From NCBI GenBank assembly GCA_028875055.1, contig JAPPGG010000056.1:1-64000 (forward strand): a stretch of DNA of 64,000 nt, in the 5' to 3' direction. Shown piece after piece: positions 35,620-45,257 of this stretch. The notes under the pieces were generated by a model that did no database searches, had not been told where the DNA came from, and was given only the letters and a program-made list of their open reading frames with translations. Source of the stretch: Chloroflexota bacterium (GTDB lineage: Bacteria; Chloroflexota; Dehalococcoidia; Lucifugimonadales; UBA3495). The translations under genes and the position numbers were made by a program. Numbering within the stretch: the stretch's first letter is position 1; each line of letters starts with the position of its first letter.

Positions 35620-36546
35620 CTATCTGTCGCCAGGCGACAGGATCCTGGTCTGCAGAACCATCTCCTCGCCGGACCCTGCGCCGGTGTGGGGTTTGTCCAC
35701 GGTAAGGTTCATCCAGTCGAACCCATACAGGGACTCGGGCGGGTCCAGCGCCATGGTTCCCCATCCCGACGAATCTACCGAAATCTGCCCCACTGCCAGG
35801 TGCTGCCCGTTGCGTGACAACCAAACGTTGAAGGCCTGCGAGGGCTGCGGAGGCTCCATGTTGGCCAGCATCAAGATTGCCTTCCGGCCGTCACTGGTTA
35901 CCAGCAGCACCCCTTCGGACTCGCTGTTTCCGTCGGTGGGACTCAAAAGGAGGGGCTGGGTAAAAGGTCGGGCCATCAGGTAGCTTGTTTCCATAACCTG
36001 CTTTAAGGCCGAATCGGTCTGCTGCCCTTCAATCGCCAGTTGAGAAACTCCCGTGCTGGCCGAGGCGAGCCCGGCCTCCAAGTGCTCCAAACGGGAGTTG
36101 GTTTCAATTCTCTCCTGCTGCAGCGTATTCAACCTGCTGGTTGTTACCACGTTCATGATCAACGAAGCGGTGAGCAGCCCCACTACCAGGGTGGCGGCCA
36201 GGGGCATAGCGAAGGTGCTGAGGGTGAAGCGGGTGGAGGCTTCGTCGCTTTCCTTCTTGCGGACCCCTCCCCCATCCAGGGGCCTGAAAATCAAAGGAAG
36301 TTCCTCGACCGACTCCATGACACGGGCCCCTATTCCCTGCGGGGCCGACACCTGAGGCACCGCCTCGGCTAAGGCAAGCCCTGCCTGCTGGAAGTCAGCA
36401 ACTGCCTGGACGCAAAGCGGGCAGATCTCGAGGTGAGCCTCGAAGACTTCCCGCTCGTCCTCTTCCAGGGAACCCAGCACATAGGATTCGACCAGGTCTT
36501 CGAGGCACTCTGCGCCATCTGGTAGGTATGGATTATTCGTCGTCAT
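35620..36546 (-). CDS. Anti-sigma factor (RskA-like, zinc-finger N-terminus)
   Basis: HLEICPLCVQAV zinc-finger motif, central TM helix, C-terminal RskA-type domain; overlaps the ECF sigma gene. Confidence 0.87.
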   Translation of the reverse strand: MTTNNPYLPDGAECLEDLVESYVLGSLEEDEREVFEAHLEICPLCVQAVADFQQAGLALAEAVPQVSAPQGIGARVMESVEELPLIFRPLDGGGVRKKESDEASTRFTLSTFAMPLAATLVVGLLTASLIMNVVTTSRLNTLQQERIETNSRLEHLEAGLASASTGVSQLAIEGQQTDSALKQVMETSYLMARPFTQPLLLSPTDGNSESEGVLLVTSDGRKAILMLANMEPPQPSQAFNVWLSRNGQHLAVGQISVDSSGWGTMALDPPESLYGFDWMNLTVDKPHTGAGSGEEMVLQTRILSPGDR

Positions 36547-37108
36547 CTTGCCGTAGTTCTTCCCGAAGTTTCTGCAGGGCCAATCGAGCCCTAGTCTTCA
36601 CTGTACCCAGTGGCTGGCCCAGCCTGGCGGCAATCTCCGATTGGGAGAGGCCATTGAAGTAAGCCAGGTTGATTACCTCTTGTTGAGCGGCGGGCAACTT
36701 GGACAATGCCTCGCGAACCCTTTCGGCCTCCAGGTTTCGCTCCACAGCCACGTCCGTGGCAACTTCGCCTGAAGGAAGAAGGTCCAGTGTCTCGTACTCT
36801 TTAGGGTCGGAAATAGCGGCGGCGCGGCGCCGGGACCTGATTACGTCGATGACCTTGTGATGAGCAACGCTCATTATCCAGGTCTTGGGCTGCCCCCGCG
36901 AGGAGCTATAGCTGGCCGCCTTTAGCCAGATATTCAGGAACACGTCCTGAGTGGCTTCCTCCGCCACCGCTTCCGAGCGGAGCATGTACCGGGCCAGCGA
37001 ATAGACCGCCGATGAATACCGCTCGTAAATTGCTTCGAGGGCATCCTTGTCTCCGGCAGCGATTCGAACTAGCAGCTCCTGGTCCTCCAGGACCTGGTAG
37101 TCAGTCAC
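36533..37108 (-). CDS. ECF-family RNA polymerase sigma factor
   Basis: YSLARYMLRSEAVAEEATQDVFLNIW (region 2) and INLAYFNGLSQSEIAARLGQPLGTVKTRARLALQKLRE (region 4). Confidence 0.95.
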   Translation of the reverse strand: MTDYQVLEDQELLVRIAAGDKDALEAIYERYSSAVYSLARYMLRSEAVAEEATQDVFLNIWLKAASYSSSRGQPKTWIMSVAHHKVIDVIRSRRRAAAISDPKEYETLDLLPSGEVATDVAVERNLEAERVREALSKLPAAQQEVINLAYFNGLSQSEIAARLGQPLGTVKTRARLALQKLREELRQDDDE

Positions 37109-37198: not shown

Positions 37199-38035
37199 TC
37201 ACTCATTGGTGTTTTCGAAACGCTCAATCAATTCTCGGGCCGCGCTGATCTCACGAACATTCCTGGACCGGCCGATCAGAGACTCCAGGGTTCCCAGCGC
37301 GGCGCTCTTCTTGCCCTGGTCCATTTGACAACGCGCCAGGACCAGATAGAGCCCGGTGTTATCCGGATCAATGAGCAACATTCGTTCGATCACCGGCGCC
37401 AGACGGACCCAGTCGCGAAGCTGGAAATAAATGATGCGGAGGTTGTTCAGCATACGCTCAAGGATCTGCCTGGAGGTGGTGGGAGCAAGGAAACTCTCAT
37501 CCCACTGTACCCGCTGACCGAATAGCTGTTCAGCCAGCCGACGGCAGTCTCCCGCCGAAAGAAGTTGGCCTCGATGGAACGGATCCATGTAGAGGTCCAG
37601 GTCCTGGATTTTCACCAGAAAGTGGCCGGGCATCCCTACGCCATTGCAATTCAGCCCCAGACGTGCCGCCACACCGAGATAGAGAACCGACAGAGTTATG
37701 GGAATCCCAACCCGGGTGTCAATTACCCGATTCAGAAGACTGTTCTGGGGATTGTAGTAGTCTTCAGCATTGCCGGAAAATCCCATTTCGTCGAAGAAGT
37801 AGCGATTCAGGCTTCGGGCCAACTCCCCGGGGTCTTCATTGTCGCCAACCGCAGCCTTGACCTGTTGCGCCATGTCGTCTAGCGAGCGCAAATAGCCATC
37901 TACGTCCAGATCCGGATATTCTTCGCCCGCGATCAACAAGGCGGCACGTTGCAAGTCTATTTGACCTTCAGGAGAGCTCATCTCCTGAATGAAAAGCTCG
38001 CGGAAACTGGCAGGGGAGCTATCGGGCATATTCAA
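37199..38035 (-). CDS. SirB1-like transglutaminase-fold protein with TPR region
   Basis: LLNRVIDTRVGIPITLSVLYLGVAARLGL, GMPGHFLVKIQ, YMDPFHRGQLLS. Confidence 0.85.
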   Translation of the reverse strand: MNMPDSSPASFRELFIQEMSSPEGQIDLQRAALLIAGEEYPDLDVDGYLRSLDDMAQQVKAAVGDNEDPGELARSLNRYFFDEMGFSGNAEDYYNPQNSLLNRVIDTRVGIPITLSVLYLGVAARLGLNCNGVGMPGHFLVKIQDLDLYMDPFHRGQLLSAGDCRRLAEQLFGQRVQWDESFLAPTTSRQILERMLNNLRIIYFQLRDWVRLAPVIERMLLIDPDNTGLYLVLARCQMDQGKKSAALGTLESLIGRSRNVREISAARELIERFENTNE

Positions 38036-38056: not shown

Positions 38057-39454
38057 CTAGACCACCAGGGTTTCCAGTAGACGGGTTAAATCGGGTTCTT
38101 CCTCAAACCGCCACAGGATGTCCAGCGCCGCCGAACATTGTTGCTCGGACAATACGGCTGAGGACAGGCTGGTGAATTTCTCGGCAACTTCATGGTCGCT
38201 AAGGGGGTTATTCTTGTGCCCCTTGGGATAGGAAGTGGCGGCTTCGGTGGTTCTGCCGCCGGACTCCACAACTTCAATTCTGCAGTTGTATTGCTGGGGA
38301 TACTTTTCGGTAAAGCCGGCTCCCTCGGACATGGTCATCCTGGACATAAGCGCCCGCAGGCTGGGGTCCGCGATACGGTGGGGCGCAAAACTCGCGGGAG
38401 TAACCGAGCCATCCTGAAGAGCCATGGCAACCAGGAAAGGGATGCTGTGGTCGGCAGTTTCCCTGGTCTGGGGATCCCATTTCTCGGGTTCCGTCTCGGG
38501 GCTGCTGACGCCGGACCGATAAATTTCGATGGAAATAGATTCGACGTTTTCGAGATTTATACGAGGGCGCAGGGCCACGGCAAGGCCGATTGGGGCCTGG
38601 GTGTGTATCTGAGAAGGATAAAATTTAAACGTAGTATCATTTATCAAAAACTGCTGGCCATCTCTTCCGAATTGCTCAAGGGTAACCTCCTGGGTAACCC
38701 CTGACTGCTCCCACAGTCCCCTTCTTCCCTGGAAGGGCTCGGCGGGGCCGGACATGCCTTCAGCGGCAAGCTGGGCCGCAAATACTCCTGCCCGGGTTGC
38801 GCTGGCCGTAGCGCATCCCTTCCACATGGAAAGTTCGCCGGTGCGAGTAACTCCAAGGGGCAAATTAGGGGCCAGGGCCAGGGATATGGCATTTCCCATG
38901 CTGTCCCGGTCCAGGCCCATCAGGGAACCGGCGGCGCAGGTGGCGCCAACGATGCTGAACATGCCCTGGTCCCAGCCCAGGTCACCGGTAACAACCTGGT
39001 CCGACAACCTGGCGAAAATTTCGTAGGCCAGGGTGATGGAAGTCAGAAGTTCCCGCCCGCTCCGGGAATAGGCGTCACCCACCGCCAATACGGCCGCAAT
39101 CATGTCGCTGGGATGACCGCCACCCGGAGAGAAGTAGGAGTCATTGCAGTCCAGGTAGCGGATCATGCAGCCATTGGCAAAAGAGGCCATATCCAGCGAA
39201 CTGAAGTCCTGGGTCCCGACCACCCGTGCCGGCGGATTCCCGGCGACAGAATACGCCAGCTTGCGGGCTATCTTGGCCGGTTCGGCCAGGTAACCACCCA
39301 TGGCACATCCCACCGTATCAATGAGTGTGCGCTTGACCTGGTGGACCGTGGCTGCGTCGAGGTCCTCATAGGTCAGGTCGCATGAGTATTCCGCCAGCAG
39401 CTTGGTGGTGTCGTCCATGGATGGCTCCGAATCTACTCTTTCTGGTCGATACAC
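38057..39454 (-). CDS. MmgE/PrpD family protein
   Basis: TLIDTVGCAMGGYLAEPAKIARK, SFANGCMIRYLDCNDSYFSPGGGHPSDMIAAVLAVGD. Confidence 0.9.
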   Translation of the reverse strand: MYRPERVDSEPSMDDTTKLLAEYSCDLTYEDLDAATVHQVKRTLIDTVGCAMGGYLAEPAKIARKLAYSVAGNPPARVVGTQDFSSLDMASFANGCMIRYLDCNDSYFSPGGGHPSDMIAAVLAVGDAYSRSGRELLTSITLAYEIFARLSDQVVTGDLGWDQGMFSIVGATCAAGSLMGLDRDSMGNAISLALAPNLPLGVTRTGELSMWKGCATASATRAGVFAAQLAAEGMSGPAEPFQGRRGLWEQSGVTQEVTLEQFGRDGQQFLINDTTFKFYPSQIHTQAPIGLAVALRPRINLENVESISIEIYRSGVSSPETEPEKWDPQTRETADHSIPFLVAMALQDGSVTPASFAPHRIADPSLRALMSRMTMSEGAGFTEKYPQQYNCRIEVVESGGRTTEAATSYPKGHKNNPLSDHEVAEKFTSLSSAVLSEQQCSAALDILWRFEEEPDLTRLLETLVV

Positions 39455-39481: not shown

Positions 39482-41494
39482 CTAGTTGTCGGCCGCCTGG
39501 GCTTCGGGCACCCTGCTGGTCAACTCGACGTAATGGTCTGATGCCTGGGCCACCAACAGTTCCACGTCCTCGGCCAGCACATAGCCCTGCTCGACCAGTT
39601 CCTCCGCTGCTGCCCTTATGCGGCTCAAATAGTCTTCCCGGGAAGAATAACGCTCCTCAATTGAAGCGCGGGGATCGCCGCTGGCTTCTCTTTCAGCCCG
39701 GGTGGCAGCGAAGGGAATGGTGGAGCCGGCCAAGGTGCCGCCAGTAGCTCCGCCAGAGGAAAGAATCTGCCCTTCCCCACCGATGTCTGCATGCCGCAGG
39801 TTCCAACCGGTATGGGTGGCCAGGGGTACGGTGGTCAGGGGCAATCGAATCCCGGCCTTTTCGTTGCCATCTTCGTCAACGGATGGAACCAGCAAAGGAT
39901 AGGGTTCCCCCATAACCGCTGGTACGTTTGTGGCCACTCCGGGCTCGGGTCCAAAGTCCATCCTGCGGAATCGACGGTAAGGGTCGGGAGTGTTTACGCC
40001 AGGAATCTTTCGCAACGCCTCAGACACAGAGTCGGCATCCGCAGCTGTGCCATCGTCCAGCCTGGGGTTCTGGCTTGGTGGCGCTTCTGTACCCTCGGAA
40101 ACCCACCGGTCCAGATTCACCAGCGCCGCTCTAAGCAGCGGCCTGTAGTCCAGGCAATTGAAAGGCTGCTGTCCCTTGCTTCCGTTCGCCGGGTCGCTGT
40201 CTCTCAGGTAAGTGGTGCCCAGCGGATGCTGCGCCCCACCAAAGTGGTAAACCCGGACATCGTCCGGAACCTCCAGGTCTCTTTCCCCTGACATGTCTAT
40301 ATGGACCATGGCTCCGCCGCCGCCCCAATACTCGGATGAGGTGTAGGTGTACATGATCTTGGGCAGCGGGCCCTGGGCGGCCGAACGGGTCAAGACGCCG
40401 TCGGTTTGCCCAGTAACCGGGTCGGTCTGCTCGCTGTCGCTAAAGGGGAAGAGATTGTTGGGGCTTCGGCTGGCCTGGCTGGAAGGCTGAGCAAAGCGCT
40501 GGTTGAATTCTCCGTGCTTGGCCCCGGCAACATGGGGAATCAGCCCGTCAAAGACCCTTCGACCCTGCTCATCGTAATTGAGGCCATAGTAAACAAGGTC
40601 GCGAAGGAAGCGACCGCTCTGGGAAGAACCGAAGCTGTAGGCGTATTCCAGGGAGCCGGCGCACGGATTTCCGTCCTCGGCAGTGCCGTGGCGCAGGAAG
40701 GACGCCAATTCACGGGTGGCCAGCAGGCCGGCCCCCACGATAGGGGCTCCAGTAGTGGAGTAGATGACCTGGTACACCTTGCCGGGCTCGAATCCGGACT
40801 CCCGGTAAACATAGTTGGCATCAGGGACGACCTGCCCATCCCTGACACGGGCAAATCGCCATTCTTCCCTGGGGATTATGGATTCCGGACCATCTTCGTG
40901 GTCCTGGACAGTCATGTAGGCTTCCCAGTCCTCCAGGTTGTTGGCAGGATAGGGCCGATGATTTCGGTCAGAAACGAAAACCTCGTTTATGGGCTCGTTA
41001 GGTACGAAGGTGACTACCAGCTTGCCGGAGATGCGAGTGCCATCCAGGTTGCGGGCCTCGGGCGGGTAGAGCCTGAGGACTCCGGGGACATCCGGCGCAT
41101 CGTGCTGCCAGCCGCACCAGGCGACAGTGTACCCCTGGCGCATCAGGAACCCATTCCCAGCCTCCAGGGGAACATCGGGGGCCAGGTCGGGAGCATTGTT
41201 GAAGTTGCGAAGGCAGGGACCACGGCCGCGGTTGAGAATGTCGAAAAAGAGCCTGCCGTTGCCCTTGCCGGGGTCAACCGGCCTCAGGATTCGAAAATCT
41301 GAGTAAAAGTGGACCTCACCCGTATTACTGCGAGGGGCAAGCTTGAGGTCAGTTACGGTTTCGTTGAAGGGATTCACCGGATCTACTGTGAAATAGACAG
41401 TCCCGTCCAGTTGTTCATAAGCTCCCACATCGCCGAATGACTCTCCGTTAGCGAAGGGTTGGCGGGAGGTAATTTCCAGCTTTCCTACAGCCAT
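39482..41494 (-). CDS. Alpha/beta hydrolase domain-containing protein (about 670 aa)
   Basis: EYAYSFGSSQSGRFLRDLVYYGLNYDEQGRRVFDGLIPHVAG and overall architecture of the large alpha/beta hydrolase-domain family. Confidence 0.75.
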   Translation of the reverse strand: MAVGKLEITSRQPFANGESFGDVGAYEQLDGTVYFTVDPVNPFNETVTDLKLAPRSNTGEVHFYSDFRILRPVDPGKGNGRLFFDILNRGRGPCLRNFNNAPDLAPDVPLEAGNGFLMRQGYTVAWCGWQHDAPDVPGVLRLYPPEARNLDGTRISGKLVVTFVPNEPINEVFVSDRNHRPYPANNLEDWEAYMTVQDHEDGPESIIPREEWRFARVRDGQVVPDANYVYRESGFEPGKVYQVIYSTTGAPIVGAGLLATRELASFLRHGTAEDGNPCAGSLEYAYSFGSSQSGRFLRDLVYYGLNYDEQGRRVFDGLIPHVAGAKHGEFNQRFAQPSSQASRSPNNLFPFSDSEQTDPVTGQTDGVLTRSAAQGPLPKIMYTYTSSEYWGGGGAMVHIDMSGERDLEVPDDVRVYHFGGAQHPLGTTYLRDSDPANGSKGQQPFNCLDYRPLLRAALVNLDRWVSEGTEAPPSQNPRLDDGTAADADSVSEALRKIPGVNTPDPYRRFRRMDFGPEPGVATNVPAVMGEPYPLLVPSVDEDGNEKAGIRLPLTTVPLATHTGWNLRHADIGGEGQILSSGGATGGTLAGSTIPFAATRAEREASGDPRASIEERYSSREDYLSRIRAAAEELVEQGYVLAEDVELLVAQASDHYVELTSRVPEAQAADN

Positions 41495-41582: not shown

Positions 41583-44500
41583 TCACAAAATGGCGCTGGT
41601 ATCTACATCCAGGTCCGTTGGCGCTTCATCACCGGTGAAATCGAGCCACCAGCGGGCAAATTGCCCTTCGCCATACTTGTCGCGCAGGCGGGCGAGGTGG
41701 GCCTTGACCTGAACCAGCACCGGAAGCTCGTACTCGGTGACCAGCTGATATGTACGAGCCGTCCATTCAAGGGCGCCAACGAGGTTGTCCGTCTCTTCAG
41801 CCACCATACCAAGCTGTCCATACGTTCGGGCTACCCGCTGCACATCCCCCAGTTCTTCGAAGATCTCCCTGGCCTGGTGATACCAGTTGTCCGCCTCCGC
41901 GTATCTCTGCTGCTCGTGGAAAAGAACTCCCAGCTGTCGGCACTCATCGCCGGCTCCCCGGCGGTCGCCCAGTTCCTCCCGCCGTTCCAGGGCGGCGAGA
42001 TACCACTCTTCCGCCTCTTCGAATACTATCCCCCTGTCCTGCTCCAAAAGACCCAGGAAATGCAACTCTGTGGCCATCTGAGCCTGATTCCCGAGCCTGT
42101 CGCACAGGCCCAGAGCCTGCTGGTACCAGTTCTTGGCTTCATCGAAGTTGTACTGAGCATGACAGACCGTTCCCAGTTCGTGATAGACCTGAGCTGCGGT
42201 TTCTTCGTCACGGTGCTCTTCAACCATTTCCCGGGCACGCTGGAACCAGCTTTCCGCCTCTTTGTGCTCGAACTTCAGCTGGGTTACCAGGCCCAGGGCC
42301 CGGTAGTCCTTGACCATTTCCTCTTCGTCGGGCAGGCGTTGGTGGATATCCAGGGCCTTGCCGTACCACTCCTTGGCCTCGGTATAGAGACGCTGGTGCT
42401 GGCGCACCTGGCCCAGGGCAAAGTAGTCGTCGGCCACAGAGGAGCGGTCCTCTCCGCTCTCGATGATTTCCAGGGACTTCTGGAACCAGCCCGCCGCTTC
42501 ATCCAGTCTCCGGTAGAGCAGGGCTATGGCGCCAAACTGGTGATAAACCGACGCGACCCGTGGGTCTGAGTCGGCTTCGGGCTGAGCCGTCAGGTAATCG
42601 GACAGCTGTTCGTTGAGTTCCTGGGCGCGTACAACGTCACCGCTTTCTACAGATTCACTCACATCCGTGCCCAGGAGGTACAACCAAAGGTCAATGGCTC
42701 CGGCTTCAAACGCAGATTCAGCTGACCCACCGACGGCTTCCAGGAGTTGCGACCTCAAACGGCGAAGTTCGGGTATCCGGCGCTGCATCCGGTAAACCTG
42801 GGCAAGAGGCTGGACTATGAGCTGGGCGTTGTCCCATTGGCTTGCCTCCAGCGCCAGTCCAAGGGCCTGATTCAGGTTACCCTCCTCAGCCAGCACGGCC
42901 GTAGCGCCGGAGTCCTGATTCTCGTAAAGCGACTCCATAAAGTAATCCGCGGTATCCGCATACACTCGCACGAACTCAGTTTCCAGGGTGCTGATGGCTT
43001 CAGCTCGAAGCTGACGCCCGAGCTTGGAACCCAGGAATCGCGGCACCGCCGGATGAATCTGGTACACGCTGGGAGAAATGGGCTCCAGGAGGCCGGCGGC
43101 CAGCCCGGACCGCAACAGCGTCCGGCACGCGCCCCAACCCAGCTCCTCGCCCATCGCTCCCCGATAAGCTGATTCCTGGGTAATGTGGGTGAGTATGTCC
43201 ATCATTACCCGACGCTGGAACAGGGCAAGGAACGGCAGGTGGGTGCGACTGCGGTGTGACATCTTGGTCCAGGAGTATTCCATCAGGGCGGTAAGGTAGC
43301 TGTCCCTTCCTTCCTCCACAGCCCATTCGGGCAACTCGCCTGTAGTGCGGGCCAGTTCCCCGCGCAGTACGGAAGCAGGAACATCGTTGAGCAGTGGCAA
43401 AGCGACCTGGCAGGCCAGGGGATGGCCCTCAATGTCGTCCAGCAATGTTGCGACTTCTTCGTTGATCCGGCCAACGTCAATGCCTGCCCTGGCGACAATG
43501 GCGCCGCCTAACTCCCGTCGTTCAACCCGGTTCAGTCCCTTCATTTCTATGACGGCAGGCGGTACAGGAAGCCAGCCCTCGGTGGGATTTCGACTGCTCA
43601 GCAAGACCTTGCTGGCACCGGCGCCGGTAACTTCGGATATGAAGCGGGCCATGTCTGCCTGCTCGGCCTCAGTCAACAAGCCAGGCGAACCCGAGGGAAA
43701 GCCGGCGATGTTTTCCGCCCCGTCAAGAATTAGCAGCGAGGGCTGCTCCTTGAGGTATTCCACCACCCAGCCAAGCTGCCTCTCGGCGTTGAGGTCGGCG
43801 AACCTCAGGCCCAGGATGGAGGTGCCAATTTCGTGTATTACCCGTTCCAGGCTGGCGGAGTGAGAGAGCTCGAAGGGAGTGTAGAATACGCCGCCAGGCA
43901 GTTCCCTTCGACCCGTTTGCTGAAGCCAACGGGCCAGGCCGAGGGCCAGCTCAGTCTTGCCCACCCCAGTGTTTCCAGACAGCAAGACCAGGCTGTCTAG
44001 CTCCAGGGCCTTTTCCAGCTGCGCCATCTCGGCATCTCTGCCGATAAGGCCATACTGGCCGGCCACCGGAAACTGGCTTTCCGGCTCTTCATCCTGTTGT
44101 TGCTGGATGGCGGGGGGAGCCAGCGGATTGACCTGTTGGGCCAAGATGGCAGGAGGCGAATAGCTTCGAGAGCGGTAAACGGAGGGTGTGATCCAGTCCC
44201 ACGATACCAGTGGACCGGACAAAGTGGGGCGATGCGGTTCATCCATCAGGCCACTACGGGCAGCAGCGAGTGATTCTCCCGCGTCCTTACCCTGGGCCAG
44301 GGACTGGTAAAATCTGCGGAGGAAGCCCTCTGTTGCAGGAGCGCCCCGAAGCTGCGTGGGTACCAAGATGGAAGCCGGGACCCCTGCGCTGGCCAGTTCC
44401 AGACCTACCTTCTCCCAGGCCTGGCGTTGCTGTTCGGTCCTGTTGCCCCGATCCCCTGCCGAAATGAAGACCAGGGGAACTCCGGCATCAATCAAGGCAC

Positions 44501-45257
44501 GGCCCAACTGGGCTACGTCCACGGACTGTGCCGACGACCCTGGCCCTTCCAGGAGCAAATTGCCCTCGTCGTCAAGGACAATACCATCCAGGTGGACCAC
44601 GTGGTAGCGGGAAGGGTTTTGTTCCAGCCTATTGGTAAGGGCATCAAAGGTTGGGGGTCGGAGAAAATCGAGTTCCACCTCAACGTTCAGGCCCTCAAGC
44701 ACAGGAAGCAGCGCTTTTGACAGGCTGCAAGAGTAACTCTCATTTTGGTCCGCGACATAAGGCGCCGCTGCCAGGATGTTCAATTGTTCCGTCGTAAGTT
44801 CGGCGTCGAAGGGAGGTTGGTCCGAGGATTCGGTGTGCCTGATTAGGGATGAGATACCGGAGACCAGATATCCGGACTCCGGGTTATTCAATAGTTCCCA
44901 AGGGAGAGAAAGGAACTCGGCGCGGCTTGAGGCAATGCGCAGCTCTCGGTTTTCCCCGTCTTCAGATAGTACCGAGTCCAGCAATTGTCGGCATTCACCT
45001 TCAGGGAAAACAGTCTCGTACAGTAATCTCCCCAGGTTGCGAAAGCCGTTCTCCACGGCCCCGGCCCTCTCCACATTGGGCCCAAAGGGGCTGTCCAGGT
45101 ATTCCTGGAAGTACCAGGAAATCTCAGCTCGGTCTGCGTTTGCCAATGGATTACTGAAGGGCGTGGCTGGGGCGGCGACGGGGCTGTCCTCTGCCCGGAG
45201 AACTAGCTGGAGTTGGCCGGAGTCAGGTAAGTCGTGGATTTCCAAAGACCTGATCAA
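41583..45257 (-). CDS. CHAT-like domain plus STAND NTPase plus TPR-repeat protein (1224 aa)
   Basis: CHAT-like FLSLPWELLNNPESGYLVS and YHVVHLDGIV; Walker A LLSGNTGVGKTELALGLARWL, Walker B PSLLILDGAENI; many C-terminal TPRs. Confidence 0.85.
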   Translation of the reverse strand: MIRSLEIHDLPDSGQLQLVLRAEDSPVAAPATPFSNPLANADRAEISWYFQEYLDSPFGPNVERAGAVENGFRNLGRLLYETVFPEGECRQLLDSVLSEDGENRELRIASSRAEFLSLPWELLNNPESGYLVSGISSLIRHTESSDQPPFDAELTTEQLNILAAAPYVADQNESYSCSLSKALLPVLEGLNVEVELDFLRPPTFDALTNRLEQNPSRYHVVHLDGIVLDDEGNLLLEGPGSSAQSVDVAQLGRALIDAGVPLVFISAGDRGNRTEQQRQAWEKVGLELASAGVPASILVPTQLRGAPATEGFLRRFYQSLAQGKDAGESLAAARSGLMDEPHRPTLSGPLVSWDWITPSVYRSRSYSPPAILAQQVNPLAPPAIQQQQDEEPESQFPVAGQYGLIGRDAEMAQLEKALELDSLVLLSGNTGVGKTELALGLARWLQQTGRRELPGGVFYTPFELSHSASLERVIHEIGTSILGLRFADLNAERQLGWVVEYLKEQPSLLILDGAENIAGFPSGSPGLLTEAEQADMARFISEVTGAGASKVLLSSRNPTEGWLPVPPAVIEMKGLNRVERRELGGAIVARAGIDVGRINEEVATLLDDIEGHPLACQVALPLLNDVPASVLRGELARTTGELPEWAVEEGRDSYLTALMEYSWTKMSHRSRTHLPFLALFQRRVMMDILTHITQESAYRGAMGEELGWGACRTLLRSGLAAGLLEPISPSVYQIHPAVPRFLGSKLGRQLRAEAISTLETEFVRVYADTADYFMESLYENQDSGATAVLAEEGNLNQALGLALEASQWDNAQLIVQPLAQVYRMQRRIPELRRLRSQLLEAVGGSAESAFEAGAIDLWLYLLGTDVSESVESGDVVRAQELNEQLSDYLTAQPEADSDPRVASVYHQFGAIALLYRRLDEAAGWFQKSLEIIESGEDRSSVADDYFALGQVRQHQRLYTEAKEWYGKALDIHQRLPDEEEMVKDYRALGLVTQLKFEHKEAESWFQRAREMVEEHRDEETAAQVYHELGTVCHAQYNFDEAKNWYQQALGLCDRLGNQAQMATELHFLGLLEQDRGIVFEEAEEWYLAALERREELGDRRGAGDECRQLGVLFHEQQRYAEADNWYHQAREIFEELGDVQRVARTYGQLGMVAEETDNLVGALEWTARTYQLVTEYELPVLVQVKAHLARLRDKYGEGQFARWWLDFTGDEAPTDLDVDTSAIL

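Follow-up and report, generated by a model that had tools for sequence, protein, structure and literature searches.

We identified a pseudo-CHAT domain, shared throughout its family, in a STAND-TPR switch protein whose NTPase motifs are intact and whose gene lies on the minus strand of the window (the whole 64,000-nucleotide stretch of Chloroflexota DNA analysed here, from a MAG of 3.75 Mb that is 98% complete). As a rule, CHAT-STAND proteins are interpreted as effectors that act by proteolysis in defence or cell death. We read this one, with a probability of roughly 60%, as a domesticated ATP-driven STAND-TPR scaffold or switch that carries a non-catalytic pseudo-CHAT, a function that we infer together with the regulator and clasp roles proposed below. 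The observations behind this reading are the family-wide absence of the catalytic dyad, the confinement of the dead domains to a single clade, their persistence under selection, the intact NTPase motifs, an inverted pattern of constraint, synteny, and the lack of a detectable active partner. The gene and its parts are as follows:

41583..45257, minus strand: CHAT-STAND-wHTH-TPR gene for a 1224-aa protein; GGAG lies shortly before the TTG start codon
44142..45257, minus strand: pseudo-CHAT domain, residues 1-372 (Pfam PF12770, AF2 model, PDB fold matches)
44064..44141, minus strand: linker, residues 373-398 (alignment entropy)
43338..44063, minus strand: STAND NTPase, residues 399-640 (AAA_22/NACHT/nSTAND, AF2, PDB 6mfv and Apaf-1)
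43953..43976, minus strand: Walker A GNTGVGKT, residues 428-435, Gly433 and Lys434 invariant
43722..43736, minus strand: Walker B LLILD, residues 508-512, Asp512 invariant
42858..43337, minus strand: winged-helix region (residues 641-800), better conserved than any other part (alignment and AF2)
41634..42857, minus strand: helical region and TPR solenoid, residues 801-1208 (TPR_12 x4, AF2)

The open reading frame proposed in an earlier sequence-only reading is genuine, and the N-terminal ~370 aa, which that reading had called CHAT-like, match PF12770 at residues 75-344 (E 4.6e-14, a score of 53 bits where the cut-off is 24). Since a search of PDB sequences with the CHAT profile returned chance matches only, fold comparison was needed. 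The AlphaFold2 model of residues 1-380 (pLDDT 90.6, pTM 0.91) has SAVED-CHAT, Craspase TPR-CHAT and separase among its best Foldseek matches in the PDB, all with probability 1.00, and shares the CHAT/separase fold of 8tl0, 7y8t and 5fc3 at modest TM-scores (0.38-0.54 by query). Very long chains from the C1 central pair of cilia (PDB 7sqc and 7n6g, E ~1e-7 to 1e-5) match the same model too, which might mean that a structural protein of cilia contains a CHAT-like domain. Behind the CHAT region, the P-loop NTPase that had been claimed is borne out by an AAA_22 match, weaker NACHT/nSTAND matches and intact Walker motifs, GK[TS] and LLhhD being found in every full-length orthologue. The G(H)P motif reads GHPL, with G and P invariant, and a winged helix and a TPR sensor are seen in the model and in Pfam. 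By its Walker A/B and GHP motifs, winged helix and C-terminal repeats, as judged from alignment and model, the window protein classes as a STAND NTPase, whose ligand-driven oligomerisation is putative. The model of residues 396-1224 (pLDDT 90.9) shows a helical region followed by ~8 clear TPR hairpins, and TPR_12 matches four stretches; the TPRs described earlier are thus present, and the suggested number of about ten is slightly high but fair. The top PDB match of the STAND-wHTH-TPR model is 6mfv, a STAND-TPR protein, with Apaf-1 lower down.

The residues that bear on catalysis are the following:

44580..44582, minus strand: Ile226, in the column of the catalytic His; 33 orthologues have I/L/A/F/V/Q/M there, 15/15 active relatives His
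44454..44456, minus strand: Gly268, in the column of the catalytic Cys; 33 orthologues have G/S/A/P there, 15/15 active relatives Cys
44586..44606, minus strand: YHVVHLD scaffold motif, residues 218-224; Y218, H219, H222 and D224 retained in the dead clade
44757..44759, minus strand: Tyr167, near-invariant Arg in active relatives, putative pocket position
44727..44729, minus strand: Cys177, near-invariant Arg in active relatives, putative pocket position

The two codons had been named exactly in the sequence-only reading, and Ile226 and Gly268 align to the His and Cys columns of the active relatives, the sites being located by this alignment rather than by structural superposition. Among the 33 orthologues compared (30 same-family genomes with the CHAT part covered plus three from a search of the order), none has His or Cys at these columns, whereas all 15 nearest relatives outside the family have HFDxHG (HFDGHG or a close variant) and AC or SC there, the Cys lying after the next core strand beyond HFDGHG. 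As the dyad is absent from 33/33 orthologues and present in 15/15 outside relatives, we excluded an isolated mutation or an assembly error; the substitutions are shared by independent orthologues, and I226/G268 stand where active clan CD CHAT proteases have their His-Cys dyad. Retention of protease activity through a shifted or alternative catalytic set is hardly conceivable: H219, H222 and D224 are still present, but the same residues occur in the active relatives beside the true His, no Ser or Cys is conserved at the nucleophile site among the 33 dead CHATs, and the best-shared Cys column reaches <=39%, 5/33 dead CHATs having no Cys at all. Moreover, the dead clade has lost residues that hardly vary among 14 active relatives (E51, R167, R177, G227, Q269, A298, M299, V303 and L352), some of which are likely, by analogy with caspases, to have formed the substrate pocket. 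Scaffold residues are kept (W120, E121, H219, H222, D224, G323, R334, D354, W355 and P358), and a further set is conserved specifically within the dead clade (L10, N124, Y130, P300, M338, W353 and S363). Judged from these alignments, it is nearly certain that the CHAT of the dead clade is proteolytically inactive, and the proposal of a pseudo-protease CHAT on a STAND ATPase is supported across the family.

In the relative search the gene is present in nearly all genomes of the same family, usually as a single copy, many of the compared genomes being incomplete MAGs; 'SAR202 cluster bacterium bin22', at 84% identity, is among the nearest named records, which suggests that the window belongs to that part of Dehalococcoidia. 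G014 has two divergent copies of the pseudo-CHAT-STAND-TPR protein (C72 and C135, L044), 58% and 55% identical to the window's, which reflect either a duplication or a mixed bin. The tree on STAND-wHTH supports the dead group at 96/90 and the active group at 98/96, and the tree on CHAT alone supports the dead clade at 100/99. Because the trees place the dead CHATs in one clade, the dyad was probably lost once. Branching outward from the dead clade are the CHAT-less lineages g12 (G015, G025; inside the family) and f10 (G043, G801), and then the active G847. In both CHAT-less lineages STAND and TPR are retained, and no PF12770 CHAT was found in G015, G025, G043 or G801. Since distant active relatives share the full-length architecture, the CHAT-less forms are best read, on this tree, as at least two deletions. 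A CHAT remnant was sought upstream of the g12 genes; an ABC permease gene lies ~60 nt away and no remnant was seen. The most telling active relative, G847, belongs to the same order and has YNAVHFDGHG, ILNACQSA and a very similar N-terminus; its CHAT-STAND half and probable TPR half lie on two contigs, and the full length is not seen in one piece. A second strong CHAT match (227 bits) is found on G847:C215 (L187), in which the dead-clade genomes differ.

Loss of the dyad goes together with a reversal of constraint. In two groups of five active relatives the mean identity is 0.64-0.65 for CHAT and 0.51-0.55 for TPR; in the dead clade it is 0.41 for CHAT, 0.70 for wHTH and 0.64 for TPR. TPR identity exceeds CHAT identity in 465/465 dead pairs versus 1/20 active pairs, CHAT being the better conserved in the other 19, although the pairs share history and the 465 are not independent tests. 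At matched STAND divergence, CHAT and TPR identities are 0.39 versus 0.61 in dead pairs and 0.50 versus 0.46 in active pairs, and in these alignments the reversal is consistent despite the non-independence of the pairs. The dead CHAT is nevertheless still under selection, since dN/dS over eight close pairs is 0.08-0.28 for CHAT, as against 0.05-0.21 for STAND, 0.01-0.12 for wHTH and 0.02-0.08 for TPR, some of the dS values being near saturation. These figures bear on the possibility that the pseudo-CHAT is a vestige, STAND-wHTH-TPR working alone while the CHAT, drifting until it is lost, persists for the sake of folding or by chance. The two lineages that have lost CHAT and keep the remainder would fit this, as would the fact that, of all domains in the dead clade, CHAT is conserved least, evolving several times faster than the TPRs; such faster evolution could mark a slowly decaying domain instead of a working clasp. 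However, every pair gives a dN/dS well below 1, the frame is open in 33/33 orthologues, the window's CHAT models confidently, and conservation extends to residues peculiar to the dead clade, and we therefore regard a vestige as unlikely, though worth keeping in mind.

A further, active CHAT in the cell, which the sequence-only reading had considered as a possible partner, was not detected: apart from the second copy of the same protein in G014, there is no other PF12770 CHAT in the source genome or in 34 family genomes, and no Peptidase_C14 (PF00656) in the 33 genomes searched for it. PF12770 misses some dead CHATs (G010, G030) and is of limited sensitivity in that sense, while canonical active CHATs score far above the cut-off. 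Regulation of some other, active protease of the cell by the pseudo-protease has a parallel in animal pseudo-caspases such as FLIP(L), which are known as paralogues of active caspases (PMC7586951), but with PF12770 matching only copies of the same protein and with no C14, these being the two protease families that the searches covered, we hold it very improbable.

A role in immunity or cell death had also been suggested. It might take the form of an anti-phage defence or cell-death sensor with the pseudo-CHAT as a decoy or dominant-negative part, and a STAND with a caspase-fold domain in the effector position is indeed the design of conflict systems (PMC7159879, PMC10907252); vWA-MoxR systems, moreover, commonly hold inactive caspase domains (PMC7159879). 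However, PADLOC named no defence system, returning generic TPR and weak ATPase matches only, and no active counterpart occurs in the same cells by the PF12770 and C14 searches. Since the gene occurs mostly once per genome, in nearly all members of the family and in conserved order among metabolic genes, with highly conserved sensor TPRs, an immune or cell-death role is disfavoured and we consider it improbable. A variable sensor would fit changing invaders, and a constant sensor would fit an internal ligand.

The neighbours of the gene in the window are these:

39482..41494, minus strand: Abhydrolase_10 gene, 88 nt downstream on the same strand
38057..39454, minus strand: MmgE/PrpD gene, in the cluster of most orthologues
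37199-38035, minus strand: Transglutaminase-like (Transglut_core2) protein with C-terminal TPR, kept in the cluster of 9 genomes
35620-37108, minus strand: ECF sigma factor gene, overlapped by the RskA-like anti-sigma gene that follows it; ~half of related genomes have the pair in this syntenic cluster

The conserved gene order runs through a TPP enzyme, an acyl-CoA synthetase-type ATP-grasp protein and a PNPOx-like gene to the STAND gene, followed by Abhydrolase_10, an LLM-type oxidoreductase, MmgE/PrpD, ECF sigma and RskA-like anti-sigma; the LLM-type gene is missing from the window itself. In many orthologue genomes the next downstream gene starts within ~100 nt, and in the CHAT-less g12 genomes MmgE/PrpD overlaps the end of the STAND gene. 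In genomes of g2/g3 (L055, L056, L061, L062, L049), as many as three CitE-like lyase genes lie immediately upstream of the STAND gene but on the other strand, the names LLM and CitE-like being our reading of the neighbours' sequences. A scan for sigma-70 promoters upstream of the gene found none. This synteny fits vertical inheritance and possible co-transcription, the latter judged from spacing.

The reading that we prefer, a domesticated STAND-TPR switch, may be put as follows. An active caspase-like CHAT on an ATP-driven STAND switch would have lost His and Cys once, in an ancestor of the SAR202/Dehalococcoidia family, and the protein would then have been retained as a single-copy, vertically inherited regulator. 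Its TPR solenoid may bind a constant internal partner, whereupon the STAND module would swap ADP for ATP and assemble; the non-cutting pseudo-CHAT could serve as an N-terminal clasp that binds protein or is autoinhibitory, and the output might consist in scaffolding or binding, perhaps with a link to the adjacent catabolic gene cluster. Inactivity itself, assembly, ligand, output and operon link are the conditional parts of this scheme. Taken together, the data suggest a defence-type or cell-death-type machine turned housekeeping regulator. The wider version, in which a bacterial NLR-like STAND machine was domesticated when its effector died once, selection moved to the sensor, and the protein became a core regulator of the whole SAR202-type family with the former effector a non-catalytic clasp or deleted, we put forward more tentatively, at somewhat less than even odds.

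Active, dead and deleted CHATs form a well-sampled series along a single tree, in which the shift of constraint away from the protease and on to the sensor can be measured; the series offers a natural test of the STAND-TPR part alone. It cautions that in annotation a CHAT match does not always mean a protease, and it provides a conserved signalling protein for testing in an ocean and sponge lineage of which hardly anything is in culture. We found no report of an inactive CHAT domain in a STAND protein in the open literature, outside which most subscription journals lie. DdvA (8rw5/8rot), a fold match considered as a known pseudo-CHAT precedent, was rejected, having a Cys at the site when aligned to an active relative.

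Among known systems, the closest are the active CHAT-STAND-TPR proteins of Chloroflexota (comparison set L167-L180; taxonomically closest G847, L185), which have the same collinear CHAT-STAND-wHTH-TPR architecture, with ~22-27% identity to the window protein in CHAT and ~26-32% in STAND (BLAST), but differ in their intact HFDxHG and Cys motifs, conserved Arg residues, CHAT better conserved than TPR, and patchy distribution with sometimes several copies per genome. The bacterial pseudo-orthocaspases (PMC6426788) are alike in that a caspase-fold domain lost His-Cys and is kept in clades, some with TPRs, and one of them, SyOC of Synechocystis, has a reported oxidative-stress phenotype (PMC7889975); they belong, however, to the C14 p20 family, whereas the domain here is a CHAT and PF00656 has no match in the source genome. 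The vWA-MoxR ternary conflict systems likewise hold an inactive caspase-fold domain in an NTPase-based system, for which a decoy or dominant-negative role has been proposed (PMC7159879), but there the inactive domains are fused to vWA, and for the window protein no active counterpart was found. Craspase TPR-CHAT (Csx29), SAVED-CHAT and separase share the CHAT/separase fold but are active His-Cys proteases without STAND, in a CRISPR or cohesin context (PMC9729208); in particular, type III-E Craspase does not match here, the eight neighbours examined being metabolic and sigma/anti-sigma genes, with no Cas7-11/gRAMP gene among them, and a STAND module being present. 6mfv and Apaf-1 share the STAND fold, and 6mfv also the TPR sensor, with no CHAT and 15-17% identity over the structural alignment. 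Finally, LypABC of Caulobacter (PMC13236601) resembles the protein described here as NLR-like immune machinery in non-defence use, but differs in its working peptidase domains and its domain make-up.
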